Origin: Betaproteobacteria bacterium
GTDB taxonomy: Bacteria > Pseudomonadota > Gammaproteobacteria > Burkholderiales > Burkholderiaceae_C
Direction: 5' to 3'
DNA length: 64,000 nucleotides
Assembly (NCBI GenBank): GCA_013289985.1
Contig: JABCYW010000002.1
Location: 1-64,000, forward strand
Made by a program: the position numbers and the translations under genes. Below are positions 2,401-26,284 of this stretch, one piece after another. Below the pieces are notes generated by a model, which searched no databases, was not told where the DNA came from, and saw only the letters and a program-made list of their open reading frames with translations. How positions within the stretch are numbered: the stretch's first letter is position 1; every line of letters starts with the position of its first letter.

Positions 2401-3534
2401 ATGTACCTCTCCGAAGACCATCGCGCCGTGCAGGACGCCGTCCGCGCCTTCGTGCGCGACCGCATCGCGCCCAAGGCCGCGGCCTGGGATCGCGACTGCC
2501 ACTTCCCGCGCGACGAACTGCGCGGGCTGGCCGAACTGGGCTGCTACGGCATCGCGGTGCCGGTCGAATGGGACGGCGCGGGGCTGGACTACCTCTCGGT
2601 GTCGCTGATCCTCGAGGAGATCGCCGCCGGCGACGGCGCCACCTCCACCATCATCAGCGTCACCAACTGCCCGGTGAACACGATCATGATGGCGTTCGCC
2701 AACGCCGAGCAGAAGGAGCGCTTCCTCAAGCCGCTGGCGCGCGGCGAGATGCTGGGCGCGTTCTGCCTGACCGAGCCGCACGTGGGCTCGGAGGCCGGGG
2801 GCCTGCGCACCACCGCCGTGAAGGCCGGCGACCAGTACGTGCTCAATGGCGTCAAGCAGTTCATCACCAGCGGCAAGAACGGCGACGTCGCGATCGTGAT
2901 GGCGGTCACCGACAAGGCCGCCGGCAAGAAGGGCATCAGCGCCTTCCTGGTGCCGACGAACACGCCCGGCTACGTGGTGGCGCGCATCGAGGAGAAGATG
3001 GGCCAGCACGCGAGCGACACCGCGCAGATCCTGTTCGAGGACTGCCGCATCCCGTCGGCCAACCTGATCGGCGAGGAGGGCCAGGGCCTGAAGATCGCGC
3101 TGTCCGGGCTGGAGGGCGGGCGTATCGGCATCGCGTCGCAGGCCGTGGGCATGGCGCGCGCGGCCTTCGAGGCGGCCGTGGCCTACGCCAAGGACCGCGT
3201 GGCCTTCGCCAAGCCCATCTTCGAGCACCAGGCGATCCAGTTCAAGCTGGCCGACATGGCCACGCAGATCGAGGCGGCGCGCCAGCTGATCCATCACGCG
3301 GCGAGCCTGAAGGACGCCGGCCAGCCGTGCCTGAAGGAGGCCGCGATGGCCAAGCTGTTCGCCAGCGAGATGGCCGAGCGCGTGTGCTCCGCGGCCATCC
3401 AGGTGTTCGGCGGCTACGGCTACACCACCGACTTCCCGGTGGAGCGCATCTACCGCGACGTGCGCGTGTGCCAGATCTACGAAGGCACGTCCGAAGTCCA
3501 GAAGATCCTCATCGGGCGAGCCCTGGCGCTGTGA
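2401..3534 (+). CDS. Acyl-CoA dehydrogenase
   Basis: 377 residues, the usual length of short/medium-chain acyl-CoA dehydrogenases. N-terminal helical domain, a middle FAD-binding segment with the CLTEPHVGSEAGG motif (about residues 122-134) and ITSGK, and a C-terminal domain with QVFGGYGYTTDFPVERIYRD. The YEGTSEVQ motif near the C-terminus carries the catalytic glutamate found in short-chain enzymes. It oxidises acyl-CoA to 2-enoyl-CoA and passes electrons to ETF. A sequence AAGAGACAACC just before the ATG is a plausible ribosome site. The liu operon in this window has no isovaleryl-CoA dehydrogenase of its own, but this gene lies 13 kb away and cannot be assigned that role from sequence. Confidence 0.92.
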   Translation: MYLSEDHRAVQDAVRAFVRDRIAPKAAAWDRDCHFPRDELRGLAELGCYGIAVPVEWDGAGLDYLSVSLILEEIAAGDGATSTIISVTNCPVNTIMMAFANAEQKERFLKPLARGEMLGAFCLTEPHVGSEAGGLRTTAVKAGDQYVLNGVKQFITSGKNGDVAIVMAVTDKAAGKKGISAFLVPTNTPGYVVARIEEKMGQHASDTAQILFEDCRIPSANLIGEEGQGLKIALSGLEGGRIGIASQAVGMARAAFEAAVAYAKDRVAFAKPIFEHQAIQFKLADMATQIEAARQLIHHAASLKDAGQPCLKEAAMAKLFASEMAERVCSAAIQVFGGYGYTTDFPVERIYRDVRVCQIYEGTSEVQKILIGRALAL

Positions 3535-4412: not shown

Positions 4413-6449
4413 TTGAATCCCTTTCGCCCCGCCACGCTGGTGGCTGTCGTTGCGCTGGCCATGGCCGCGCAAGCCGCCGTCGGCGCACCGTCGCCCGCCG
4501 TCACCCACACCGGCCTGGACAAGTCGGGCATGGATCCCGCCGTGCGACCGCAGGACGACCTGTTCCTCGCGATGAACGGGGGCTGGCTCGCCAGCACCGG
4601 GATCCCGGCCGACAAGACGGCCTGGGGCGCGGTCTACGAAATGCGTCAACTCTCCGACCAGCGCGTCAAGGGCATCGTCGAGGAGCTCGCCGCCAAGCCG
4701 CAGGCCGCCGGCTCCGTCAGCGCCAAGATCGGCGACTTCTACTCGAGCTACATGGACACCGCGGCCATCGACGCCGCCGGCATCCGGCCGCTGGCGCCGT
4801 TCAAGGCGCAGGTGTCGGCCGTGAAGAACAAGAAGGACCTGGTCCTGCTGATGGGCCGCTGGGCCGGCGTCATGGACATGCCGCTGGGCCTGGGCGTCGG
4901 CCCCGACGCCAAGGAGCCCGGCGTCTATTCGGCCGGCGCCGATCAGGGCGGCCTGGGGCTGGACGATCGCGACTACTACCTCAAGGCCGACGAGCGCTTC
5001 GCGAAGGCGCGCGCCGCCTACGCCACGTACCTGCACGCGATCCTGGCGCTGGACGGCGACAGGAACGCCGTCATGGACGCCAGGTCGGTGATGGCGCTGG
5101 AGACGAAGATCGCCACGGCGCAGTGGTCCAAGGAGGCCAACCGCGACCCGGTCAAGACGTACAACCCCATGACGCCGGCGGAGCTGGCGGCCCACGCGCC
5201 GTCCGTCGACTGGAAGGCCTGGCTCGCGGCCGGCGAGTTGCCCGACGCGCCGTTCGTCTCGATCTCGCAGCCCAGCTACGCATGGGCGCTGGCCAAGCTG
5301 GTCAAGGACGAGCCTCTGGACGTCTGGAAGGCCTACCTGCGCGTTCGCCTGCTCGACGCGAATGCGCGCATCCTGCCGGCCGCCTTCCGCGACGCGAGCT
5401 ACCAGTTCCACGACGTCGCGATCACCGGCGTCAACCAGGACCAGCCGCGCTGGCAGCGTGGCGTGGCCAGCGTCAACGCGGCGCTCGGCGAGGCCGTCGG
5501 CCAGGTCTACGTGGCGCGCTACTTCCCGCCGGCCTACAAGGCGCGCATGGTGGAGCTGGTGGACAACCTGCTCAAGGCCTATTCGCAGTCCATCGACAAC
5601 CTCACGTGGATGAGCCCGGCCACCAAGGTCGAGGCGCACGCCAAGCTGGCCAAGTACGGCGTCAAGATCGGCTATCCCGATGTCTGGCGCGACTACGGCG
5701 CCCTCGAGGTGAAGGCCGGCGACCCGGTGGGCAACCGGGCGCGCGCCGCGCAGTTCCTGTACCAGCGCCGTGCCGTCCGCAACGGCAAGCCGGTGGATCG
5801 CACCGAGTGGAGCATGACGCCGCAGACGGTCAACGCCTACTACGCACCCGACCGCAACGAGGTCGTGTTCCCGGCCGCCATCCTGCAGCCGCCGCTGTTC
5901 GACATGCAAGCCGACGACGCCGTCAACTACGGCGCCATCGGCGCCATCATCGGCCACGAGATCAGCCACGGTTTCGACGACCAGGGCAGCCAGTACGACG
6001 GCGACGGCCGGCTGCGCAACTGGTGGACGGCCGACGACCGCAAGGCGTTCGACGCCATCACGTCCAGGCTCGACGCGCAGTACTCGGCCTACGAGCCGCT
6101 GCCCGGCACGCACCTGAACGGCAAGCTCACGCTGGGCGAGAACATCGCCGACCTGTCGGGCCTGCAGATCTCCTACAAGGCCTGGAAGCTGTCGCTGGGC
6201 GGCAAGCCGGCGCCGGTGATCGACGGCGTCACCGGCGAGCAGCGCTTCTACTACGGCTTCGCGCAGGAGTGGCGGTCGAAGACGCGCGACGCGCGCGCGC
6301 TGCAGCTCATCGTGATCGATCCCCACTCCCCGGCGAGCTTCCGCGCCGACGGCGCGGCGATCAACAGCGATGGCTTCCACGAGGCGTTCGGCACCAAGCC
6401 GGGCGACCGGATGTGGAAGGCGCCGGAAGACCGGTTGCGCCTCTGGTAG
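4413..6449 (+). CDS. Secreted M13 family zinc metallopeptidase (first of tandem pair)
   Basis: 678 residues from a TTG start, chosen because LNPFRPATLVAVVALAMA matches the N-terminus of the next gene and forms a clean signal peptide ending near VGA; GAGGACG upstream is a possible ribosome site. M13 peptidases (neprilysin/PepO type) cut short peptides in the periplasm or outside the cell. Zinc-site motif HEISH is at residues 515-519, the third ligand glutamate is in ENIAD at about 576-580, and NAYYAPDRNE before them is the substrate-backbone NAY motif. The C-terminus ends in a Trp of the WKAPEDRLRLW type. Complete and probably active. Strongly similar to the following gene. Confidence 0.92.
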   Translation: MNPFRPATLVAVVALAMAAQAAVGAPSPAVTHTGLDKSGMDPAVRPQDDLFLAMNGGWLASTGIPADKTAWGAVYEMRQLSDQRVKGIVEELAAKPQAAGSVSAKIGDFYSSYMDTAAIDAAGIRPLAPFKAQVSAVKNKKDLVLLMGRWAGVMDMPLGLGVGPDAKEPGVYSAGADQGGLGLDDRDYYLKADERFAKARAAYATYLHAILALDGDRNAVMDARSVMALETKIATAQWSKEANRDPVKTYNPMTPAELAAHAPSVDWKAWLAAGELPDAPFVSISQPSYAWALAKLVKDEPLDVWKAYLRVRLLDANARILPAAFRDASYQFHDVAITGVNQDQPRWQRGVASVNAALGEAVGQVYVARYFPPAYKARMVELVDNLLKAYSQSIDNLTWMSPATKVEAHAKLAKYGVKIGYPDVWRDYGALEVKAGDPVGNRARAAQFLYQRRAVRNGKPVDRTEWSMTPQTVNAYYAPDRNEVVFPAAILQPPLFDMQADDAVNYGAIGAIIGHEISHGFDDQGSQYDGDGRLRNWWTADDRKAFDAITSRLDAQYSAYEPLPGTHLNGKLTLGENIADLSGLQISYKAWKLSLGGKPAPVIDGVTGEQRFYYGFAQEWRSKTRDARALQLIVIDPHSPASFRADGAAINSDGFHEAFGTKPGDRMWKAPEDRLRLW

Positions 6450-6522
6450 CCCGGCTGTCCCTTTCGAAGAAGACGGCGGCCGCCCCGGCTCGCCGCGTCC
6501 ACCACCACCGAGGAAAATCCTG

Positions 6523-8586
6523 ATGCGTCCCTTCCGTCCCGCGACCCTGGTCGTCGCCCTGTCCCTGACCTTCGCGGCCGACCTGTCCATCGGCGCGGCG
6601 CCGCTGACCGTCGCTCCCGCAGCCGTCGCCCAGTCGCCGCTGACCTCGGGCCTGGACAAGTCCGGCATGGACACCAGCGTGCGTCCGCAGGACAGCCTGT
6701 TCGGCGCGATGAACGGCACCTGGGTGAAGAACATGCAGCTCCCGGCGGACAAGGCCGACTACGGCACGTTCACGATGCTCGACGACCAGTCCAACGAACG
6801 CGTCAGGAAGATCATCGAAGGCCTGGCCGGCAAGCCGCAGGCGCCCGGCACCGCCGGCGCCAAGATCGCCGACTTCTACAACAGCTACATGGACACCGCG
6901 GCCATCGACGCCGCCGGCATGCGTCCGCTGTGGCCGTACCTGGCGCAGGTCGACGCCGTCAAGACCCGGGCCGACCTGATGCGCCTGATGGGCCAGTGGG
7001 TCTCGTTCGTCGACCTGCCGATGGGCCTGGGCGTGGGCCCCGACGCGAAGGATCCGACCGTGTACTCGGCCGCTGCCGGCCAGGCCGGGCTCGGCCTGGG
7101 CGAGCGCGACTATTACCTGAACAAGGACGCGCGATTCGCGAAGGCTCGCACGGCCTACGTGGAGTACGTCCGCAAGATGCTGGCCGCGCAGGGCAGCAAG
7201 AACGCGAAGGTCGAGGCCGCCGCGGTGATGGGCCTCGAGACCAAGCTGGCCAAGGCGCAGTGGGCGCCCGAACAGCTGCGCGATCCCGTCAAGGGCTACA
7301 ACCCGCTGACGGTCGCCCAGATCGCCGCCAAGGCGCCAGACGCCGACTGGAAGGACTTCTTCGCCGCCGGCGAGCTGGCCGATGCGCCGTTCGTCTCCAT
7401 CGGCCAGCCGAGCTACGCCCAGGCGATGGCCAGGCTGGTCCGATCCGAACCGCTGGACGTGTGGAAGGCCTACCTGCGCGCGCACCTGATCGACGCCGTC
7501 GCGCTGGAGCTGCCGGCCGACGTGCGCGAGGCGCGCTTCCAGTTCCACGGCGTCGCGATGAGCGGCGTCAAGACCGACCGCGCGCGCTGGGAGCGTGCCG
7601 TGCGCACCGTCAACGGTTCGATGGGCGAGGCCGTCGGCCAGCTCTACGTGGCCGAATATTTCCCGCCCGCGTACAAGGCGCGCATGGTGGAGCTGGTGGA
7701 CAACCTGATGAAGGCCTACGCGCAGTCCATCGACGGCCTCGCGTGGATGAGCCCGGCCACCAAGGTCGAGGCCCACGCCAAGCTGGCCAAGTACGGCATC
7801 AAGATCGGCTACCCCGACACGTGGCGCGACTACACGGCGCTCGACGTCAAGTCCGGCGACCCGCTGGGCAACGCCGTGCGTGCCGCGCAGTTCGAGTACC
7901 ACCGCCAGGTGGCGCGCAACTCCAAGCCGGTCGATCGCACCGAGTGGGGCATGACGCCGCAGACGGTCAACGCGTACTACGACCCGACCAAGAACGAGAT
8001 CGTGTTCCCGGCCGCCATCCTTCAACCGCCGTTCTTCGACATGAAGGCCGACGACGCGGCCAACTACGGCGCGATCGGCGCCATCATCGGCCACGAGATC
8101 AGCCACGGCTTCGACGACGAAGGCAGCCAGTACGACGGCGACGGCAAGCTGCGCAACTGGTGGACCGCCGACGATCGCAAGGCCTTCGACGCCGTCACGT
8201 CCAGGCTCGACGCGCAGTTCTCGGCCTACGAGCCGCTGCCCGGCGTGCACGTCAAGGGCAAGCTGACGATGGGCGAGAACATCGCCGACCTGTCCGGCCT
8301 GCAGATCGCCTTCAAGGCCTGGAAGCTGTCGCTGGACGGCAAGCCGGCGCCGGTGATCGACGGCCTCACCGGCGAGCAGCGCTTCTACTACGCGTTCTCG
8401 CAATCGTGGCGCGAGAAGGTGCGCGACGAGGCGCTGCTCAACCAGGTCACCACCGACCCGCATTCGCCGGGCCAGTTCCGGGCCGACGGCGCGTCGATCA
8501 ACAGCGACGGCTTCCACGAGGCGTTCGCCACCAAGCCGGGCGACAAGCTCTGGAAGGCGCCGGCCGATCGGATCCGTCTCTGGTGA
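6523..8586 (+). CDS. Secreted M13 family zinc metallopeptidase (second of tandem pair)
   Basis: 687 residues. Signal peptide MRPFRPATLVVALSLTFAAD up to about residue 30, then the same GLDKSGMDTSVRPQDSLFGAMNG start of the mature protein as in its neighbour. Catalytic HEISH at 524-528, ENIAD downstream, NAYYDPTKNE before. It lies 73 bases after the first copy and both are probably co-transcribed. The two proteins are nearly identical over the catalytic half and more divergent in the N-terminal half, consistent with an old tandem duplication followed by specialisation of the lid domain, which controls peptide size. GAGGAAAATCCTG precedes the ATG. Confidence 0.93.
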   Translation: MRPFRPATLVVALSLTFAADLSIGAAPLTVAPAAVAQSPLTSGLDKSGMDTSVRPQDSLFGAMNGTWVKNMQLPADKADYGTFTMLDDQSNERVRKIIEGLAGKPQAPGTAGAKIADFYNSYMDTAAIDAAGMRPLWPYLAQVDAVKTRADLMRLMGQWVSFVDLPMGLGVGPDAKDPTVYSAAAGQAGLGLGERDYYLNKDARFAKARTAYVEYVRKMLAAQGSKNAKVEAAAVMGLETKLAKAQWAPEQLRDPVKGYNPLTVAQIAAKAPDADWKDFFAAGELADAPFVSIGQPSYAQAMARLVRSEPLDVWKAYLRAHLIDAVALELPADVREARFQFHGVAMSGVKTDRARWERAVRTVNGSMGEAVGQLYVAEYFPPAYKARMVELVDNLMKAYAQSIDGLAWMSPATKVEAHAKLAKYGIKIGYPDTWRDYTALDVKSGDPLGNAVRAAQFEYHRQVARNSKPVDRTEWGMTPQTVNAYYDPTKNEIVFPAAILQPPFFDMKADDAANYGAIGAIIGHEISHGFDDEGSQYDGDGKLRNWWTADDRKAFDAVTSRLDAQFSAYEPLPGVHVKGKLTMGENIADLSGLQIAFKAWKLSLDGKPAPVIDGLTGEQRFYYAFSQSWREKVRDEALLNQVTTDPHSPGQFRADGASINSDGFHEAFATKPGDKLWKAPADRIRLW

Positions 8587-14892: not shown

Positions 14893-15483
14893 ATGTCCGA
14901 CACGAATGAATCCGACCCGCGCCCGCTGGGCCTGGCGCGCGTGCTGAGCATCCAGGCGCACGCCAACCGCCTGGCCAACCGGCGCCTGCAGGCCGCGCTG
15001 GCCAACCTGTCCACGTCCGAGCTGCATGCGAAGCGCACGAGCTTCTTCCCCACCCTCATCGGCACGCTCAACCACCTGCTCGCGGTCGACCGCTACTACA
15101 TCGCGGCGCTGCACGGCGAGCCCGACATGGTGGAGTCGTACAAGCGCTTCGCGCCGCACGACGAGCTCTTGCCCTACGCCGCGGCGCAGGACGCCAGCGA
15201 CAACAAGCTGATCGCGTTCTGCGACAGGCTCGACGACGCGGGCGCCAACGCCGTCGTCCACATGCTGCACGGCGCCGACCCCACCCGGAGCGACCTGGCC
15301 TGCCTGGTGCTGAACCACCTGTTCATGCACCAGACGCACCACCGCGGCCAGGTGCACTCGATGCTCTCGGGCACGCACGTGAAGCCGCCGCAGCTCGACG
15401 AGTTCATCCTGCGCGTGGACGAGCCGTTCCGCGTGATGGAGATGTCGGCGCTGGGGTGGACGGAGCGCGAGGTGTTCGGTTGA
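14893..15483 (+). CDS. DinB family protein
   Basis: 196 residues forming a four-helix bundle of the DinB/YfiT type. Metal-binding histidines fit NHLL (first) and NHLFMHQTHHRGQVH (about residues 145-160), where the HxxxH pattern completes a three-histidine site. Relatives are damage-inducible proteins or metal-dependent thiol transferases; the actual reaction here is unknown. A clear AGGAGG at 14879-14884 precedes the ATG at 14893. The stop overlaps the probable TTG start of the following AraC-type regulator, so the two are likely co-translated. Confidence 0.85.
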   Translation: MSDTNESDPRPLGLARVLSIQAHANRLANRRLQAALANLSTSELHAKRTSFFPTLIGTLNHLLAVDRYYIAALHGEPDMVESYKRFAPHDELLPYAAAQDASDNKLIAFCDRLDDAGANAVVHMLHGADPTRSDLACLVLNHLFMHQTHHRGQVHSMLSGTHVKPPQLDEFILRVDEPFRVMEMSALGWTEREVFG

Positions 15484-16139: not shown

Positions 16140-16516
16140 GCGACCGGCGTGCAGATCTCGACCAGGAAGTCGTTCAGGTCGCCGACGTAGGCGATCGTCT
16201 GGCCCCAGGGCATCGCCGCGGGCTCCTGCACGAGCTTCGCGCCCGCACCGGTCGCGCGCGCGACCGCGGCCGCGACGTCGTCGGTGACGAACGCGATCTC
16301 GGCGGTCGGCTTGTCCAGCACCGGCGCCTGCGGCGTCTTGCCGATCTGGCGCAACAGCGCGTGCGACACGAAGGCCAGCGCGGTCGCGCCGGTCTCCAGC
16401 TCGCCGTACGAGCCGCTCTCGTGCGTGTAGCGGGTGCTCAGGCCGAAGGCCTTGCCGTAGAAGGCCAGCGTCGCGGGAACGTCCGCGACGTAAAGGATGG
16501 TGTAGCCGAATTGCAT
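16130..16516 (-). CDS. VOC (glyoxalase/bleomycin-resistance) family protein
   Basis: 128 residues, one pair of beta-alpha-beta-beta-beta modules. It begins MQFGYTILYVADVPATLAFYGKAFGLSTRY, the classic start of vicinal-oxygen-chelate proteins, and ends DLNDFLVEICTPV with the metal-ligand glutamate. Members include glyoxalase I, extradiol dioxygenases and resistance proteins; this one has no feature that fixes its substrate. It is divergent from liuB, with about 200 bases between them that hold a strong palindrome. The convergent end overlaps the AraC gene by ten bases. Confidence 0.85.
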   Translation of the reverse strand: MQFGYTILYVADVPATLAFYGKAFGLSTRYTHESGSYGELETGATALAFVSHALLRQIGKTPQAPVLDKPTAEIAFVTDDVAAAVARATGAGAKLVQEPAAMPWGQTIAYVGDLNDFLVEICTPVAHA

Positions 16517-16612
16517 GAATCTCTCCGGATGCGATGGCGCCCACGATAGGGCAGGAACGCCGTGCGCGTCTTGAAGATTTCCGCCATCCTGCGGGCATCG
16601 TGAAATGACGTA

Positions 16613-16643
16613 ATTGACGTTTACGTAAACGTCAATCGATAAT
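16613..16643 (+). promoter_or_regulatory. liu operon promoter with 24-bp palindromic operator (LiuR-like)
   Basis: 16613-16636 is a perfect 24-bp palindrome whose half is ATTGACGTTTAC. TTGACG at 16614-16619 forms a -35 box and GATAAT at 16638-16643 a -10 box with an 18-bp spacer filled by the palindrome. Known LiuR (MerR-family) operators of leucine-degradation genes in proteobacteria contain ACGTTTACGTAAA-type cores, and liuB starts 76 bases downstream. No liuR gene is in the window. Assignment to LiuR is by remembered motif. Confidence 0.68.
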
Positions 16644-16719
16644 CATCCACGCAACGTGTCAGGCCACGCGCGCGGCCTGACCGGACACGCGCCTCAACGA
16701 GACAAGCCAGAACCACTCC

Positions 16720-18357
16720 ATGTCCACCCTCTCGACCCAACTGAACGCCCGCTCGGAAGACTTCAAGGCCAACGCCGCGGCGATGCGCCTGCTGGTGGAC
16801 GACCTCAACGCCAAGCTCGCGAAGATCGCGCTGGGCGGCGGCGACGATGCCCGCAGGAAACACCTGTCGCGCGGCAAGCTGCTCCCCCGCGACCGCGTGG
16901 AGCGCCTGCTCGACCCGGGCACGCCGTTCCTGGAGATCGCGCCGCTGGCCGCGCTGGGCATGTATCCCGAGAAGGGCGGCCAGGACGCCGCGCCGGGCGC
17001 CGGCATGATCGCCGGCATCGGCCGGGTGGCCGGCGTCGAGTGCCTGATCGTGTGCAACGACGCCACCGTCAAGGGCGGCACCTACTACCCGCTCACCGTG
17101 AAGAAGCACCTGCGCGCGCAGGAGATCGCCGCGCAGAACCGGCTGCCGTGCATCTACCTCGTCGACTCGGGCGGCGCCAACCTGCCCAACCAGGACGAGG
17201 TGTTCCCCGACCGCGACCACTTCGGCCGCATCTTCTACAACCAGGCCAACCTCAGCGCGCAAGGTATCCCGCAACTGGCCGTGGTGATGGGCTCGTGCAC
17301 GGCCGGCGGCGCCTACGTGCCGGCGATGAGCGACCAGACCATCATCGTCAAGAACCAGGGCACCATCTTCCTGGGCGGCCCGCCGCTGGTGAAGGCGGCC
17401 ACCGGCGAGGTGGTGAGCGCGGAAGACCTCGGCGGCGGCGACGTGCACACCCGCCTGTCGGGCGTGGCCGACCACCTGGCCGAGAACGACATGCACGCGC
17501 TGGCGCTCGCCCGCGGCGTGGTGGGCACGCTCAACTGGCGCAAGGACGTGGGCGTCGCGCTGCGCGAGCCCCGGGCGCCGCTGCTGCCCGAATCCGACCT
17601 GCACGGCATCATCCCGCTGGACGCCGAGGGCAAGCCGGCGCGCAAGCCCTTCGACGTGCGCGAGGTCATCGCCCGCATCGTCGACGGCTCCGAGTTCGAG
17701 GAGTTCAAGGCGCGCTACGGCGCGACGCTGGTCTGCGGCTTCGCGTGGATCGAGGGCATGCCGGTGGGCATCGTCGCCAACAACGGCATCCTGTTTTCCG
17801 AGAGCGCCGACAAGGGCGCGCACTTCATCGAGCTGTGCTGCCAGCGCAAGGTGCCGCTCGTGTTCCTGCAGAACATCACCGGCTTCATGGTGGGCCGCAA
17901 GTACGAGAACGAGGGCATCGCGCGCGCCGGCGCCAAGATGGTGACGGCCGTGGCCTGCGCCAACGTGCCCAAGTTCACGGTGATCATCGGCGGCTCGTTC
18001 GGCGCCGGCAACTACGGCATGTGCGGCCGCGCCTACAGCCCGCGCTTCCTGTGGATGTGGCCCAACGCGCGCATCAGCGTGATGGGCGGCGAGCAGGCGG
18101 CGAGCGTGCTGGCGACGGTGCGCCGCGACGGCATCGAGGCCAAGGGCGGTGCGTGGTCGGCCGACGAGGAAGAGAGCTTCAAGGCGCCGATCCGCGACCA
18201 GTACGAGGCGCAGGGCCACCCGTACTTCGCCAGCGCGCGCCTGTGGGACGACGGCGTCATCGACCCGGCCGACACGCGTCGCGTGCTGGCGCTGGGGCTG
18301 TCGGCCAGCCTCAACGCGCCGATTCCGGACATGAAGTTCGGCGTGTTCCGGATGTGA
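16720..18357 (+). CDS. liuB: 3-methylcrotonoyl-CoA carboxylase, carboxyltransferase (beta) subunit
   Basis: 545 residues. Moves CO2 from biotin on the alpha subunit to 3-methylcrotonyl-CoA, step four of leucine degradation. It has the two crotonase-like carboxyltransferase halves: the N half with [28 protein letters not shown], and the C half with [26 protein letters not shown] and [16 protein letters not shown], both hallmarks of the MCC branch rather than propionyl-CoA carboxylase. It is first in the operon, right after the palindromic promoter. The partner alpha subunit is at 22804, separated by four secreted-protein genes and liuC. Confidence 0.95.
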
Positions 18358-18454
18358 CGTGCGTGACGCCGTTCACAGCGTCGCGACAGGTTCGAACGCC
18401 GCGGGCCGCCGCAGCCGCGATGATGGCGTTCCTTCCAACCTCACCAGACACCGC

Positions 18455-19276
18455 ATGACCTCTTTCGCCCCCCGATTCGTACCGCTGCTGGTGCTGCTCG
18501 CTGCGCTCGCCGTAGTGCAGACGGCTCATGCCCGCAATGAGAGCTTCAAGCGGCCCGTCGACCAGGCGCTGGCCAAGAAGCATCCGCGCGAGACCCTGGG
18601 CGAATTGCCCCTGCGCTTCGGCAGCGCGAGCGCGACAGGCGTCGATCTGCTCAACGGCGACGTCGTCGGGCAAGGCGTGGCGAGCATCATCATCGACCCG
18701 CGCAGGCGCGATCACCTGACCGACGACGAGGTCTGCCAGAACGCGTTCGACGACGCGATCGCCCAGCTGGCGGAACAGGCGCATCGCGCCGGTGCGGCCG
18801 CGGTCGTCGGCATCGTCTCCGATTTCAAGGACGAGGTCTTCGACGATCCGCGCAGTTACGACTGCCATGCGGGTTCGGCGAAGTCCTACGTCACCTTGCG
18901 CGGCAGGCTCGCGCGCACCTACACCGTGGCGAGCTCGCGCGCACTGCCGCGCGCAACCGCCTACGCTGCCCTTGACGATGTGAAGGCGGTGCCGATCGGG
19001 GACGCTGGCCGCGAACGCTACGCGTACTTCCTGACCTTGCCCAAGCCGCGCGCGTTCGTTGTCTACGAGGACGGCGCCTGGCGCTTCTACTCGAAGGATC
19101 CCGAGGCGATGACGAAGGCGCTCGACTATTGCGCGCGCGAAGGCCGCCGCTGCTGGCTCTACGCGGCCGACGACCGCGTCGTGTGGAGCGCGGACGTGAG
19201 CCAGCGCATCGGGTCGTCCACGCAGCTCGACGGCGGCGTGGCCAAGACCAATGCTTCCGGGGACGTGAATCAATGA
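18455..19276 (+). CDS. Secreted YbjQ-like protein with C-terminal C-x-LYA domain (paralogue 1)
   Basis: 273 residues with a signal peptide ending near AHA (residue 26). The first domain (30-165) has LRFGSAS, then AAAVVGIVSDFKDEVFDDPRSYDCHAG, a pattern seen in secreted proteobacterial proteins often mislabelled 'excinuclease ATPase subunit' and related to the YbjQ fold. The second domain (about 178-248) contains LPKPRAF, GAWRFY, and CAREGRRCWLYAADDRVVW, shared with the next gene and with the hydrolase at 21582. Cysteines in both domains may form disulfides in the periplasm. No function is known. Its stop overlaps the next start as ATGA. Confidence 0.75.
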   Translation: MTSFAPRFVPLLVLLAALAVVQTAHARNESFKRPVDQALAKKHPRETLGELPLRFGSASATGVDLLNGDVVGQGVASIIIDPRRRDHLTDDEVCQNAFDDAIAQLAEQAHRAGAAAVVGIVSDFKDEVFDDPRSYDCHAGSAKSYVTLRGRLARTYTVASSRALPRATAYAALDDVKAVPIGDAGRERYAYFLTLPKPRAFVVYEDGAWRFYSKDPEAMTKALDYCAREGRRCWLYAADDRVVWSADVSQRIGSSTQLDGGVAKTNASGDVNQ

Positions 19277-20079
19277 ACGCACGCCACATTCCCGCGCTGT
19301 TGCTGCTCGTGTCGGCTGTCATGTCGGCCCAGGCGCGCGACCGCGTGTTGCACCTGCCGGTCGACGAGGCATTGGCCGACGTCACCACCCGGGGCATCGT
19401 CGGTTCGATGACGGTGCGATTCGGTTCGGCCTCGGCATCGAACGTCGATGTCCTGACTCACGACGTGCAGGTCGACGGCGGCGCCCTGCCGGTGCGCGAG
19501 AACGCGTACCAGCGCGACAGCCAGCCGCCCAGCGACGAATCCGTGTGCCAGAAGGCGTTCACCGACGCGATGAAGCGCCTCGCCACCGCTGCACGCCAGG
19601 CGGGCGCGACCGCGGCCGTGGGCATCGTCTCGGACTTCAAAGGGCAGCTCGTGGACGATGCCGCCACCTATGAGTGCCACGCCGGCAGCTTCCACTCCTA
19701 CGTGTCGCTGCGGGCGCAGCTCGCGCGCACGGTGTCCCAGGCGTCGCCGGTGCCGGTGAATTCCGGTTACGCCGACCTGGCGAACCTCGACGCCGTCCCG
19801 TCGACGCCGGCCGGCAAGGCGCGCTACGCGCACTTCCTCACGTTGCCCAAGCCGCGCGCGTTCGCGTTCCTCGAAGACGGCACGTGGCGCTTCTGGGCCG
19901 ACACCCCGGACGCGGTCAGCAAGGTGTTCGACGACTGCGCGCGCCTGAACAAGCGGTGCTGGCTCTACGCCGTCGACGACGGCGTCGTCTGGAACGCGGA
20001 AGAAGGGCGGCGCATCGCCAGCGCGGCGCAGTGGCGCCTCGCGACGGCGCCGGTCGCGCCCAAGGACGAGCACCAATGA
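19273..20079 (+). CDS. Secreted YbjQ-like protein with C-terminal C-x-LYA domain (paralogue 2)
   Basis: 268 residues, signal peptide ending near SAQA (residue 21). Same two-domain plan as the preceding gene: LPVDEALAD near the mature N-terminus, VRFGSASASNVDV, AVGIVSDFKGQLVDDAATYECHAGSFHSYVSL, then at about 175-245 FLTLPKPRAF, GTWRFWAD and CARLNKRCWLYAVDDGVVWNAE. The paralogues are clearly homologous along their full length, so this is a tandem duplication. Translationally coupled to the previous gene by a 4-bp overlap. Periplasmic or surface location is inferred from the signal peptide. Function unknown. Confidence 0.75.
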   Translation: MNARHIPALLLLVSAVMSAQARDRVLHLPVDEALADVTTRGIVGSMTVRFGSASASNVDVLTHDVQVDGGALPVRENAYQRDSQPPSDESVCQKAFTDAMKRLATAARQAGATAAVGIVSDFKGQLVDDAATYECHAGSFHSYVSLRAQLARTVSQASPVPVNSGYADLANLDAVPSTPAGKARYAHFLTLPKPRAFAFLEDGTWRFWADTPDAVSKVFDDCARLNKRCWLYAVDDGVVWNAEEGRRIASAAQWRLATAPVAPKDEHQ

Positions 20080-20179
20080 CCCGTGCCGCGTCGGAGGCGC
20101 TGTCGACGGCCGGCAAGGCGCTTGCCCCATGGCGACGTGCGATCGCCATCGCGGCCGCCGCGCCAGAAAGGGCTTGCCA

Positions 20180-20800
20180 ATGACACACTTTCGTCTCCCC
20201 CCGTTCCCCGTCGCGCTGGCCGCCGCGCTGGCCGCGCTCGCGCTGCCCGCTCAGGCCCGCAACGTCCGCCTGATGGAGTCGGTGCCCGACACCGTCCGCG
20301 TCACGCGCACGCACGACATCCTCGGCACGCTGGACCTGCGCTTCGGCAGCGACAGCGCCCGCGGCGCGACGATCGTGCGGCGCGACGTGGTCGTCAAGGG
20401 CGTGGGCACCACCCAGCTGCACGACGTCGGCCAGGACGACAAGGTGCGCCCGGCCGACCACGACCTGTGCGCCCGCGCGTTCGAGGACGCGATGACGCAG
20501 CTGGCGTTCGCCGCCCGCGGCGCGCGCGGCACGGCCATCGTCGGCGTGATCTCCAACTACGAGGGGACGGTGTTCGACGACCCCGTCCACTTCGAGTGCC
20601 ACGTCGGCGCGCTCAAGGCCGCCGTCACGCTGCGCGCCCAGATCGCCTCGGGCCCGCTGGCGCCGGCGGACGTGCCGGCGGCGTCTCCGCCGGCCCCGCC
20701 CGCGCAGCCGCCCGCGATCTCGCCGCTGCCGGACGCGCCGCAGCCGCCCGCGCCCACCTTCCAGCCCCTGCCGCCGCGGCCCGCGCCGGCGTCGAACTGA
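20180..20800 (+). CDS. Secreted YbjQ-like protein with proline-rich tail (paralogue 3)
   Basis: 206 residues. Signal peptide MTHFRLPPFPVALAAALAALALPAQA. Only the first domain of its two neighbours is present: LDLRFGSDSARG, CARAFEDAMTQLAFAARGARGTAIVGVISNYEGTVFDDPVHFECHVG. In place of the C-x-LYA domain there is a proline/alanine-rich tail (about residues 165-206), perhaps a flexible linker or wall-spanning segment. GAAAGGG about eight bases before the ATG at 20180 supports this start over an in-frame ATG at 20129. It is followed after 11 bases by liuC. Confidence 0.72.
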   Translation: MTHFRLPPFPVALAAALAALALPAQARNVRLMESVPDTVRVTRTHDILGTLDLRFGSDSARGATIVRRDVVVKGVGTTQLHDVGQDDKVRPADHDLCARAFEDAMTQLAFAARGARGTAIVGVISNYEGTVFDDPVHFECHVGALKAAVTLRAQIASGPLAPADVPAASPPAPPAQPPAISPLPDAPQPPAPTFQPLPPRPAPASN

Positions 20801-20811
20801 GCGGCTTCACG

Positions 20812-21591
20812 ATGACCGCCATCCTCCAGATCACCCGCGACGGCGCCGTCGCCCGCGTGTTCCTCAACCGCCCCGACGTGCGCAACGCGTTCAACGACAG
20901 CGTCATCGCCGAACTCACCGCGGCGTTCACCGGCTTCGCGGCCGACGCGTCGTTGCGAGCGGTCGTGCTGGGCGGCCACGGCAAGGCGTTCTGCGCCGGC
21001 GCGGATCTGTCGTGGATGCGCGCGATGGCCGACTACACGTGGGAGCAGAACCGCGCCGACGCGCAGGCGCTGGCCGACATGCTCCACGCGATCTGGTCGT
21101 GCCCGGTGCCGGTGATCGGCCGCGTGCACGGCGACTGCTACGCCGGCGGCGTGGGCCTGGCCGCGGTGTGCGACATCCTCGTCGCGGCCGAGGGCGTGAA
21201 CTTCTGCCTCAGCGAGGCGAAGCTGGGCCTGCTGCCGGCCACCATCGGCCCCTATGTGGTCAAGGCGCTTGGCGAGCAGGCGTCGCGCCGCTACTTCGCC
21301 ACCGCCGAACGCTTCGACGCCGCACGCGCCCACGCGCTGGGCTTCGTGCACGAGGTCGTGCCGGCGGACGCGCTCGACGCCAAGGTCGATGAACTCGTCG
21401 CTGCGCTCGTCGCCAACGGCCCGGCCGCCGTGCGCGCCTGCAAGAAGCTGGTGCAGGACGTCGCCGATCGCGTGATCGACGATGTGCTGCGCGGCGAGAC
21501 GGCCAGGCGCATCGCCGACATCCGTGCGAGCACCGAAGGCAAGGAGGGCGTGCAGGCCTTCCTCAACAAGCGGGATCCGGCATGGCGTTGA
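20812..21591 (+). CDS. liuC: Methylglutaconyl-CoA hydratase (enoyl-CoA hydratase family)
   Basis: 259 residues, crotonase fold. Hydrates 3-methylglutaconyl-CoA to HMG-CoA in leucine degradation. The oxyanion-hole motifs are KAFCAGADLSWMR (about residues 60-72) and YAGGVGLAAVCDI, and the CKKLVQDV region near the C-terminus fits liuC proteins. The pathway role rests mainly on its position between the two methylcrotonyl-CoA carboxylase subunits and HMG-CoA lyase. The next gene starts inside or at its stop codon. Confidence 0.88.
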   Translation: MTAILQITRDGAVARVFLNRPDVRNAFNDSVIAELTAAFTGFAADASLRAVVLGGHGKAFCAGADLSWMRAMADYTWEQNRADAQALADMLHAIWSCPVPVIGRVHGDCYAGGVGLAAVCDILVAAEGVNFCLSEAKLGLLPATIGPYVVKALGEQASRRYFATAERFDAARAHALGFVHEVVPADALDAKVDELVAALVANGPAAVRACKKLVQDVADRVIDDVLRGETARRIADIRASTEGKEGVQAFLNKRDPAWR

Positions 21592-22775
21592 TGGCCCTCG
21601 CGGCAAGGTCGCGCCGTACCGTCGCCTGGGTCGCGCTGGCGTGGCTGGTGCTCGGCGCGGGCGTGGCGAGCGCCGCGGAGACGCTGGCCGCGAGCATGCG
21701 CGAAGAGGTGATCTACATCGACAAGCCGGGTCGCGGCGACGTCAAGCTCGAGACCACGCTGTTCCTGCCACCCGGAGACGGACCGTTCCCTCTCGTGATC
21801 GTCAACCACGGCAAGTCGCTGGGCGATCCTCATTTCCAGCCGCGCGCGCGTTTCCTGCTGCCGGCGCGGGAATTCCTCAGCCGCGGCTATGCCGTCGCGG
21901 TGCCGATGCGCCAGGGCTTCGCGGACTCCGGCGGCCGCTATCTGGGCACCGGGTGCGACATCGAAGACAACGGCAAGGCGCAAGCCGTCGACGTCGCGGC
22001 AACGCTTTCCGCACTGTCCAGGCGGCCAGGCATCGACGCCAGCCGAACGGTCGTGGTGGGCCAGTCGCATGGCGGCCTGGCCACCCTGGCGACCGGCGCG
22101 CTCAGGCTGAAGGAGGTCGTGGGACTCGTGAACTTCGCCGGCGGCCTGCGTCTTGAAAACTGTGCGCACTGGCAGGCCGACCTGACGAGCGCCGTGCGTG
22201 ATTTCGGCGCGGAAACGCGCGTACCCAGCCTCTGGTTCTACGGCGACAACGACCAGGTCTTCGACACTGACTTGTGGCAGGGCATGTTCAAGGCCTACAG
22301 CGGCGCGGGCGGCCCGGCGCGCATGGTCGCGTTCGGCATCTTTCGCGACAACTCGCACGACATGTTTGCCTCGGGCGCCGGACTCAAGATCTGGGTGCCC
22401 GAGGTACGCAACTTCTTTCGCGAGCTGGGCCTGCCGTTCGACGTGAAATACCGCGTCGTGGTGGCTGACCACGAGACGCCGCCGCCCCCGCCGAGCCGCT
22501 TCGCGCCCATCGACGACGCGGCACGCATCCCTTTCGTGGGCAAGGAGGGCCGGGCCGCTTGGCGGGAGTATCGCGAGGCGGCACCCCCGAAGGCCTTCGC
22601 CGTGTCGCCGCACGGCCGCTGGTCGTATCGCTATGGCGACCCTGCCGCGATGCGTGTCGCGCTCGAGCGCTGCGCCGAGCGCGAGACCAGGGAACCATGT
22701 CAGCTGTATGCGGTGGACGACGATGTCGTCTGGCACGCCGAGATGTTGCCGACGGCTGCGGCCGCCACGAACTGA
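21582..22775 (+). CDS. Secreted alpha/beta hydrolase (dienelactone-hydrolase-like) with C-terminal C-x-LYA domain
   Basis: 397 residues, N-terminal signal anchor ending about AEA near residue 33. Alpha/beta hydrolase core: LPPGDGPFPLVIVNHG (oxyanion region), nucleophile Ser162 in GQSHGG, acid region WFYGDNDQVFD, and His in DNSHDMF. A second module at about 315-385 carries PPKAFAV, GRWSYRY, and CAERETREPCQLYAVDDDVVWHAE, the same domain as in the two secreted proteins upstream. The start may be ATG 21582 (10-bp overlap with liuC) or 21591 (TGATG overlap). It sits inside the liu operon with no known role in leucine breakdown. Confidence 0.78.
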   Translation: MALMALAARSRRTVAWVALAWLVLGAGVASAAETLAASMREEVIYIDKPGRGDVKLETTLFLPPGDGPFPLVIVNHGKSLGDPHFQPRARFLLPAREFLSRGYAVAVPMRQGFADSGGRYLGTGCDIEDNGKAQAVDVAATLSALSRRPGIDASRTVVVGQSHGGLATLATGALRLKEVVGLVNFAGGLRLENCAHWQADLTSAVRDFGAETRVPSLWFYGDNDQVFDTDLWQGMFKAYSGAGGPARMVAFGIFRDNSHDMFASGAGLKIWVPEVRNFFRELGLPFDVKYRVVVADHETPPPPPSRFAPIDDAARIPFVGKEGRAAWREYREAAPPKAFAVSPHGRWSYRYGDPAAMRVALERCAERETREPCQLYAVDDDVVWHAEMLPTAAAATN

Positions 22776-22803
22776 CAACGAATTCGCTTTCCCGGAGACA
22801 GCA

Positions 22804-24825
<2,022 letters not shown>

Positions 24826-24828
24826 GCC

Positions 24829-25758
24829 ATGGCGTCACTGCCTGAATTCGTCAAGATCGTCGAGGTCGGCCCGCGTGATGGCCTGCAGAACGAGAAGAAC
24901 CACGTGCCGGCGGCCGACAAGATCGCGCTCGTCGGCCTGCTGCAGGACGCCGGCCTGCGCGAGATCGAGGTCACCAGCTTCGTCAGCCCGAAGTGGGTGC
25001 CGCAGATGGCCGACGCGCTCGAGGTGATGGCCGGCATCGCGCGCCAACCTGGCGTGCGCTACTCGGTGCTGACGCCCAACATGAAGGGCTGGGAGGCTGC
25101 CATCGCGACGCGTCCCGACGAGATCGTCGTGTTCGGCGCGGCCAGCGAGGCGTTCAGCCAGAAGAACATCAACTGCTCGATCGCCGAGTCGATCGACCGG
25201 TTCGCGCCGGTCGTGGCCGCGGCCAAGGCGGCCGGCGTGAAGGTGCGCGCGGCGATCTCGTGCGCGGTCGGCTGTCCCTATGAAGGCGACATCGCGCCGT
25301 CGCGCGTGGCGATGGTCGCGAAGATGATGCGCGCGATCGGCGTCGACCACGTGGGCGTGGCCGACACCATCGGCGTGGGCACGCCGCTGAAGGTGCGCGC
25401 CGCGATGGAGGCCGCTCTGGAACACTTCCCAGCCGCCGAGACCAGCGGCCACTTCCACGACACCTACGGCCAGGCGCTCTCGAACATCTATGAATGCCTG
25501 CGTATGGGCATCCACACCTTCGACACCAGCGTGTCCGGCCTCGGTGGCTGCCCGTACGCGAAGGGCGCCACCGGCAACGTGGCGACCGAGGACGTGGTCT
25601 ACCTGCTGCACGGGCTGGGCATCGAGACCGGCATCGATCTCGACAAGCTCGTGGACGCCGGCGCGTTCATCAGCAGGGCGATCGGCAAGCCCAACGGTTC
25701 GCGTGTCGCGCGGGCGATGCTGGCCAAGCGGGCCGATTCAACGGCAGCGAGCGCATGA
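24829..25758 (+). CDS. liuE: Hydroxymethylglutaryl-CoA lyase
   Basis: 309 residues. Cleaves HMG-CoA to acetyl-CoA and acetoacetate, the last step of leucine degradation. TIM-barrel HMGL family with VGPRDGLQNEK at the N-terminus (Arg and Asp of the active site), SCAVGCPYEGD, HFHDTYGQAL (metal-ligand histidines), and the signature SVSGLGGCPYAKGATGNVATED containing the catalytic cysteine. Starts three bases after liuD. Complete, with no missing catalytic residue visible. Confidence 0.95.
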   Translation: MASLPEFVKIVEVGPRDGLQNEKNHVPAADKIALVGLLQDAGLREIEVTSFVSPKWVPQMADALEVMAGIARQPGVRYSVLTPNMKGWEAAIATRPDEIVVFGAASEAFSQKNINCSIAESIDRFAPVVAAAKAAGVKVRAAISCAVGCPYEGDIAPSRVAMVAKMMRAIGVDHVGVADTIGVGTPLKVRAAMEAALEHFPAAETSGHFHDTYGQALSNIYECLRMGIHTFDTSVSGLGGCPYAKGATGNVATEDVVYLLHGLGIETGIDLDKLVDAGAFISRAIGKPNGSRVARAMLAKRADSTAASA

Positions 25759-25789
25759 GCACCGCAGTCCGCAGGACGGAGGTTGCCTT

Positions 25790-26284
25790 ATGAGTCTGGA
25801 AGAACGCCCCGAAGGCTTCCAGCGCGTCTCGCAGGAGCTGCAACGCCTGGGCCATCCGCACGCGCCGCAATTCCTGGACACCGCCGCGCGCACCTCGCAG
25901 GAAGCAGCCGACGCGCTGGGCGTGGCCGTGGGCCAGATCGCCAAGAGCGTGATCTTCCGGCGCCGGTCCGACGAGGTGGCGATCCTCGTGGTGGCGTCCG
26001 GCGACCGCCGCGTCGACGAGAAGAAGGTGGCGCAGATCGTGGGCGCCATCGGTCGCGCCGACGCCGACTTCGTCAAGGCCAAGACCGGCTTCACGATCGG
26101 CGGCGTGTCGCCGCTGGCGCATGCCACGCCGGTGGTCACGCTGATCGACCGCGAGCTGTTCCGCTTCGATCGCGTGTGGGCCGCGGCGGGCCATCCGCAC
26201 GGCGTGTTCCCGATGACGCCGGCCGAGCTCGAGCGCCTCACGGGTGCGCCGGTGCACGACGTGGTGCAGGCACTTTCGGCATGA
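25790..26284 (+). CDS. YbaK/ProX-type aminoacyl-tRNA deacylase-like protein
   Basis: 164 residues. The INS/YbaK editing domain hydrolyses mischarged tRNAs, for example Cys-tRNA(Pro). Typical motifs are VGQIAKSVIFRRR, where the lysine activates water, and TGFTIGGVSPLAHATPV (GVSP loop) in the C-terminal half, ending with AGHPHGVFPMTPAEL. GGAGG 6-11 bases upstream fixes the ATG at 25790. In related bacteria a ybaK-like gene is often found in liu clusters, so the position may be conserved rather than accidental. Its stop overlaps the following start as ATGA. Confidence 0.85.
   Translation: MSLEERPEGFQRVSQELQRLGHPHAPQFLDTAARTSQEAADALGVAVGQIAKSVIFRRRSDEVAILVVASGDRRVDEKKVAQIVGAIGRADADFVKAKTGFTIGGVSPLAHATPVVTLIDRELFRFDRVWAAAGHPHGVFPMTPAELERLTGAPVHDVVQALSA

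Follow-up and report, generated by a model that had tools for sequence, protein, structure and literature searches.

Leucine degradation is treated as a wholly cytoplasmic pathway. In this work we focused on four genes for predicted exported proteins, exp1, exp2, exp3 and hyd, which lie within the leucine and isovalerate utilization (liu) operon of a betaproteobacterium that we take to be a soil-type organism. The DNA analysed (the window) is a stretch of 64,000 nucleotides, positions 1 to 64,000 of contig JABCYW010000002.1 (assembly GCA_013289985.1). We propose that the four genes may be transcribed together with the liu operon and constitute an extracytoplasmic accessory arm of it, and estimate the probability of this reading at roughly 0.48, slightly under one in two. 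It is founded on the embedding of the genes on the same strand, their export-type N-termini, a shared C-terminal module, a hydrolase signature, the recurrence of such genes at liu loci and purifying selection. The set of exp1-3 and hyd is best read as an extracytoplasmic accessory that leucine (perhaps biotin) metabolism has recruited on repeated occasions, and which would hydrolyse an ester or amide outside the cytoplasm. Exported proteins in liu operons were not the topic of any title or abstract opening that we retrieved from the literature.

Exported genes and a shared module in the liu operon

The liu genes of the window are co-directional and stand in the order liuB, liuC, liuD, liuE on the + strand, as do the four inserted genes. 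liuB (16720..18357), for the carboxyltransferase subunit of 3-methylcrotonyl-CoA carboxylase (Carboxyl_trans, 1.2e-149; named by its liu context), is followed by exp1 (18455..19276), exp2 (19273..20079) and exp3 (20180..20800). Then come liuC (20812..21591), of the enoyl-CoA hydratase family (Pfam ECH_1) and by context a 3-methylglutaconyl-CoA hydratase gene; hyd (21582..22775); liuD (22804..24825), for the biotin-carrying subunit of methylcrotonyl-CoA carboxylase (BT_MCC_alpha, 53.2 bits, cut-off 31); and liuE (24829..25758), for hydroxymethylglutaryl-CoA lyase (PRK05692, 467.7 bits, cut-off 246). From liuB to liuE the intergenic distances are 97, -4, 100, 11, -10, 28 and 3 nucleotides, exp1 and exp2 overlapping by 4 nucleotides (ATGA) and liuC and hyd by 10. 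The + strand open reading frames confirm the statement of a preliminary description of this region that exported genes lie between liuB and liuD on one strand with short gaps (11-100 nucleotides) or overlaps. That description had overlooked liuC and counted a single set. Because liuC separates exp1-3 from hyd, there are two inserts instead of one, exp1-exp2-exp3 in the liuB-liuC interval and hyd in the liuC-liuD interval.

Internal terminators and separate promoters had been named beforehand as signs against co-expression with liu. A simple consensus scan of positions 16300-26000 detected one sigma-70-like promoter match compared with 0.4 expected in shuffles, upstream of liuB on the + strand (16614..16643; a match to the consensus only), and five terminator-like sites compared with 4.2 expected, every one on the other strand and none on the + strand. 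This is weak evidence, in agreement with one liu transcript that would span the inserts.

The N-termini of exp1, exp2, exp3 and hyd show, by eye, a hydrophobic stretch and an A-x-A-like site; a lipobox was not seen by eye in exp1-3. The three exp proteins are paralogues, as had been supposed, exp2 and exp3 being 49% and 33% identical to exp1. They had also been called YbjQ-like, a name that holds for exp1 at the level of the fold and not at that of the sequence score: its match to YbjQ_1 (PF01906) reaches 15.7 bits, under the Pfam gathering cut-off of 23, and exp2 and exp3 gave no Pfam match at E 0.1. An AlphaFold2 model of exp1 made with 12 sequences (mean predicted local distance difference test score (pLDDT) 77, about 90 in most of residues 31-150) was matched over residues about 49-156 to DUF74 3qkb (Z 8.7, 86 residues, root mean square deviation (rmsd) 2.3), YbjQ 1vr4 (Z 8.1, 88 residues, rmsd 2.7) and RcsF 2y1b (Z 6.2, 83 residues, rmsd 3.5; a Z under 8 may reflect a common arrangement). 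The top Foldseek matches were 1vr4, 1y2i and 2y1b, with weak E-values from 0.0045. The model thus gives exp1, and exp1 only, a predicted YbjQ/DUF74/RcsF-like fold. C94 and C137 of exp1 are invariant in an alignment of 12 sequences and constitute a conserved cysteine pair.

Over their C-terminal 80-90 residues exp1, exp2 and hyd show homology, which defines an un-named module of about 85 residues, encoded on the + strand at 18956..19195 (exp1, E 2.6e-31), 19762..20001 (exp2, E 9.2e-30) and 22494..22742 (hyd, E 4.2e-31), the profile including in each case the sequence itself. In exp3 a Pro/Ala-rich tail replaces it. The hydrolase had been listed apart from the paralogues, but the C-termini of hyd and exp1 are 39% identical. 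An alignment of 19 modules contains six invariant columns, two of which are cysteines. At liu loci the module is borne by alpha/beta hydrolases, YbjQ-like proteins, a lipoprotein-like protein (L051) and a two-copy protein (L154), the last two assigned by eye. No Pfam family matched it better than E 0.018, and a sequence search among solved structures gave a best E of 0.013, which is not convincing. DUF4189 (PF13827) was rejected as its identity, since only 2 of the 19 modules match, weakly (best E 0.018), and the profile comparison gave a probability of 25% over only 34 columns. We also rejected a likeness of the module part of exp1 to cytidine deaminases (Z up to 3.7, rmsd 4.5), considered noise in a model of whole exp1, the module not having been predicted alone.

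The hyd protein scores 26.3 bits against Peptidase_S9 (cut-off 22.6), and the best fold matches of its model (mean pLDDT 89) are esterases and S9 peptidases (best E 6e-13). In 28 sequences S162, at the GxSxG nucleophile position, and H259 are nearly invariant and D224 is invariant. These presumably catalytic residues point to a serine alpha/beta hydrolase signature.

Three other genomes of the genus (G139, G200 and G201) were compared with the window. The liuB-liuC interval contains three exp-type genes in G139 and two in G200. In the liuC-liuD interval hyd was not found in G139, in G200 or in the part of G201 read; this interval holds a DUF4126-cluster membrane protein in G200, and a similar open reading frame (by eye) together with one of 609 residues in G201. 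Identity to the window's proteins is 88-98% for the liu proteins of G139 and G200 and 57-75% for the exp proteins (four pairs aligned). With orthology of the exp genes between congeners assumed from place and similarity, the ratio of non-synonymous to synonymous substitution rates (dN/dS) was 0.33-0.47 for exp (four comparisons) versus 0.07-0.22 for liu genes. By these ratios the exp genes appear to be under purifying selection, but a looser one. They are more than chance open reading frames, because relatives occur in two of the three other genomes and because of the dN/dS of 0.33-0.47.

The window's genome also has a stand-alone exported YbjQ-like gene without the module (G000:C3:25261-25674; L005:1534-1968, minus strand). 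Its neighbours are a beta-ketoacyl synthase, a methyltransferase and, by eye, a phosphopantetheinyl-transferase-like open reading frame. A beta-ketoacyl synthase is present in 14 of the 17 fetched loci with such a stand-alone gene, a cluster that presumably resembles the aryl-polyene type.

Recurrence at liu loci and beyond the family

We sampled 200 genomes of the family and found liuB in 182. Module profile matches at E <= 0.001 were obtained in 38 of the 200. Strong places (E <= 1e-20) fell into the liu locus in 27 of 37 cases, and in 24 of 32 genomes; for scale, a liu locus is roughly 10 kb long and the genomes are mostly 3-6 Mb. The ten strong places outside liu (G164, G036 contig 36, G012, G031, two in G168, G039, G096 contig 24, G104 and G029) were called on stretches of 9.5 to 16 kb, with G039 and G104 cut by contig ends. 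On the 11 kb contig of G039 (L267, 7014-9850) the module gene lies near DUF4126 and DH306 genes, common guests of liu, and a core liu gene was not found there. A search with exp1 alone gave a liu gene within 1.5 kb in 20 of the 29 best loci. In nine module loci away from liu and bio genes (L171, L198, L223, L240, L244, L246, L266, L272 and L273) no common neighbour theme was seen by eye.

The arrangement of the genes was recorded in a census of 109 loci, comprising the window, G139, G200, six loci fetched for exp1 or module hits in the 200-genome draw, and 100 picked by hand among the 182 liuB-bearing genomes of the draw, about one per genus and away from contig ends. Since the choice was made by hand with the exp1 matches in view, the shares are not unbiased. 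The module is present in 21 loci, clustered exported genes in 26 and either in 28; the exported-cluster counts are lower bounds, because in L136 and L153 the module genes escaped gene calling. The clustered exported genes, 34 in number, are distributed over the liuB-liuC (29), liuC-liuD (4) and liuD-liuE (1) intervals. Every one of them has the orientation of liu, as have both its neighbours, and 30 are within 100 nucleotides of the next gene and 22 of the previous one. Seven of the 26 loci carry exported genes without the module, all alpha/beta hydrolases by eye. The exported genes had been said to split two subunits of one enzyme. However, among the 77 family loci that possess liuB and liuD and in which no exported gene was found, liuC stands between the two in 67, so the inserts are not the cause of the split.

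Among 105 family loci with liuB and liuD, 83 have some called extra gene between the two, of the DUF4126 (60), DinB/GNAT-like (37, a cluster merging two gene kinds), acyl-CoA dehydrogenase (18), bioA, bioF, bioD and bioB (15 each) and PIN (14) kinds. No insert was called in the remaining 22, which include L049, whose exported gene follows liuD, and L100, in which a gap of >400 nucleotides has no called gene. With so many kinds of gene between liuB and liuD, the liu operon admits guests, among which the exported family is frequent. The commonest guest is a DUF4126 membrane protein; no DUF4126 gene was called in the liu operon of the window. A DinB-family gene is located upstream of liuB in the window (14893-15480) and inside the liu operon in relatives such as L051 and L276. 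An M13-family peptidase gene (6370-8583) also lies upstream of the liu region.

Beyond the family, 80 named loci were inspected, the best 80 of 491 stretches encoding a relative and rich in one genus. liuB occurs in 12 of them (one from Scleromatobacter), and two more have liuE only. A YbjQ-plus-module gene stands directly after liuB in three Variovorax loci (L182, L189, L190) and in a betaproteobacterial metagenome-assembled genome (L168). In two further Variovorax loci it comes after a hydrolase gene (L206) or is without a liu gene within 8 kb (L188). The gene order in G369 (family f5) is liuB, YbjQ-plus-module, hydrolase, DinB, liuC, a P450-like open reading frame (by eye), bioF, bioA, bioD; in G590 (family f89) a different exported module gene follows liuB. 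In a hydrolase tree of 64 rows (25 liu, 39 non-liu) the liu label needs 5 changes, compared with about 20 in shuffles, and 4 of these are forced by the starred branches. Because the tree needs 5 changes, at least 4 of them forced, liu linkage was inherited within clades, yet arose or was lost several times.

A second association concerns biotin synthesis. The module hydrolase precedes bioA-F-D-B on the same strand in 39 of the 80 named loci, all from Burkholderia apart from three of Trinickia, and in 38 of these the distance from the module to the bio genes is roughly 0.3-1.1 kb. Two of the Trinickia loci have, beyond bioAFDB, a liu-type dehydrogenase and liuE, a pair that adjoins in many liu operons. 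bioAFDB is also located between liuC and liuD (in one locus between liuB and liuD) in 15 of the 105 family loci, as well as in G489 (L315) from another family; L081, L085 and L090 are further examples. These bio genes within liu form a leucine-biotin supercluster. Co-occurrence of an exported gene and bioA was found in 3 of the 109 family loci (26 with exported genes, 15 with bioA), which is about chance and no excess. The biotin connection is thus a clear pattern in Burkholderia, with no excess inside the family.

Proposed function and alternative explanations

That one exported family keeps recurring at liu, joined to different N-domains, is most readily accounted for by a working link, for which we infer the following. 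exp1-3 and hyd would be carried on one transcript that rises with the use of leucine or isovalerate. The proteins would be exported, and the module cysteines may pair outside the cytoplasm. The module could serve as a common docking or ligand-binding piece, bringing the hydrolase and the YbjQ/RcsF-fold proteins to one site. There hyd would cleave an external ester or amide, whose acid product would feed the cytoplasmic pathway; this product may be an isovaleryl-type acyl group, a biotin conjugate being less likely. exp1-3 would act as non-catalytic ligand-binding or adaptor partners. An uncharacterised extracytoplasmic function linked to the use of branched-chain acids had been one of the two initial proposals for these genes; such a putative function is favoured by the recurrence (27 of the 37 strong places at liu).

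Several observations weigh against such a function. The strong-place count is biased toward liu, because only modules located at liu went into the module profile. A strong module at liu is absent from 176 of the 200 family genomes, and the 15 weaker module places comprise 2 at liu (G076), 12 that lie distant from liuB or on a different contig, and one, in G055, left unassigned. No liu gene was detected in 66 of the 80 named loci at the thresholds used, and among 20 order-wide loci the module is at liu in G590 only, a genome picked for its match, the other 19 being without it. An exp1 match was not found anywhere in G201, the liuB-liuC gap of which lies outside the contig read. The exp genes evolve faster than the liu genes, and non-exported genes (DUF4126, DinB, PIN, bioAFDB, acyl-CoA dehydrogenase) enter liu gaps too.

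The last points also support hitch-hiking, in which the gaps of liu tolerate insertions and exported genes exploit a convenient promoter with no role in leucine catabolism. Besides the 83 of 105 loci with an extra gene, among them PIN, DinB, DUF4126 and bio genes, and the faster evolution of exp, it would account for hyd not being found in three congeners and exp1 in one. It accords less well with the concentration of one exported module family at liu, on different N-domains and in separate hydrolase clades, or with the purifying selection on exp genes. In addition, a repeat search of positions 16500-25800, which recovered the exp1-3 paralogy, revealed no recognisable flanking repeats of the mobile-element type, no transposase search having been made. 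We consider hitch-hiking unlikely, although it is the chief rival; most weight is put on an extracytoplasmic hydrolysis step feeding the pathway, with YbjQ/RcsF-fold partners.

The bio genes suggest another possibility, that hyd acts outside the cytoplasm to release biotin from conjugates, or otherwise supplies biotin, and accompanies liu since LiuD needs biotin. The bioA-F-D-B genes downstream of the hydrolase in Burkholderia and three Trinickia, and those inside liu in 15 family loci and G489, would agree with this. The chance-level co-occurrence with exported genes in the family, the selection of the 80 named loci as the best of 491 with one genus prevailing, and the window's liu operon, in which no bio genes were seen, speak against it and make this explanation rather improbable. 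An envelope role is also quite improbable; in it, the YbjQ/RcsF-fold proteins would sense or dampen the stress that branched acids impose on the envelope, with hyd as a detoxifying or remodelling enzyme. The fold match of exp1 to RcsF, the conserved cysteine pair and the beta-ketoacyl synthase in 14 of the 17 stand-alone loci, which suggests lipid-like clusters, are in line with such a role, but no lipobox was seen and the DUF74 and YbjQ matches are better than that to RcsF. A recent insertion confined to the lineage and exploiting the liu promoter, as first suggested, would agree with hyd being found, among the congeners compared, in the window's genome only and with the missing exp1 match in G201, a result at odds with a rejection, but is very improbable and was rejected as a one-off event for exp1-3, such genes occupying the same place in G139 and G200 and YbjQ-plus-module genes standing behind liuB in Variovorax, L168 and G369; it may still hold for hyd.

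Returning to the accessory arm, it is possible, and we propose it tentatively, that it extends across Burkholderiales. There, exported hydrolases, YbjQ/RcsF-fold and other proteins that share one probably disulfide-bonded module would have been repeatedly recruited to liu and bio genes, and would make ready or capture an external substrate of the methylcrotonyl-CoA carboxylase pathway; leucine (and biotin) metabolism would thereby have an extracytoplasmic arm that has gone unrecognised. Should exported enzymes prove to be co-expressed with leucine degradation across many lineages, the pathway is likely to serve a so far unnamed substrate from outside. The shared module offers a handle for finding this substrate, and the link to biotin genes a testable clue.

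Comparison with known systems

The liu operon of Proteobacteria has the gene order liuABCDE. The window is like it in the order liuB, liuC, liuD, liuE on one strand, and differs from it by having no liuA beside liuB and four exported genes inside. Gene calling in the 4.7 kb upstream of liuB gave no acyl-CoA dehydrogenase gene (liuA); one located at 2401-3531, about 13 kb upstream of liuB, is a candidate for liuA. The liu regulators LiuR and LiuQ are treated in PMC5343134, in passages that do not list the members of the operon.

The shared module and DUF4189 are both small and cysteine-bearing, without a clear profile match. The hyd protein resembles alpha/beta hydrolases of the esterase, dienelactone hydrolase and prolyl oligopeptidase types in family score and fold, and differs from them by its C-terminal module of about 85 residues. 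Passages of PMC4092069 describe RcsF, YbjQ and DUF74 proteins as having the DUF1471 fold in common. The predicted fold of exp1 is like that of the YbjQ/DUF74/RcsF group; unlike members of the YbjQ family, exp1 has a sequence match below the Pfam cut-off, and it adds to the fold an export sequence, the cysteine pair C94/C137 and the C-terminal module.

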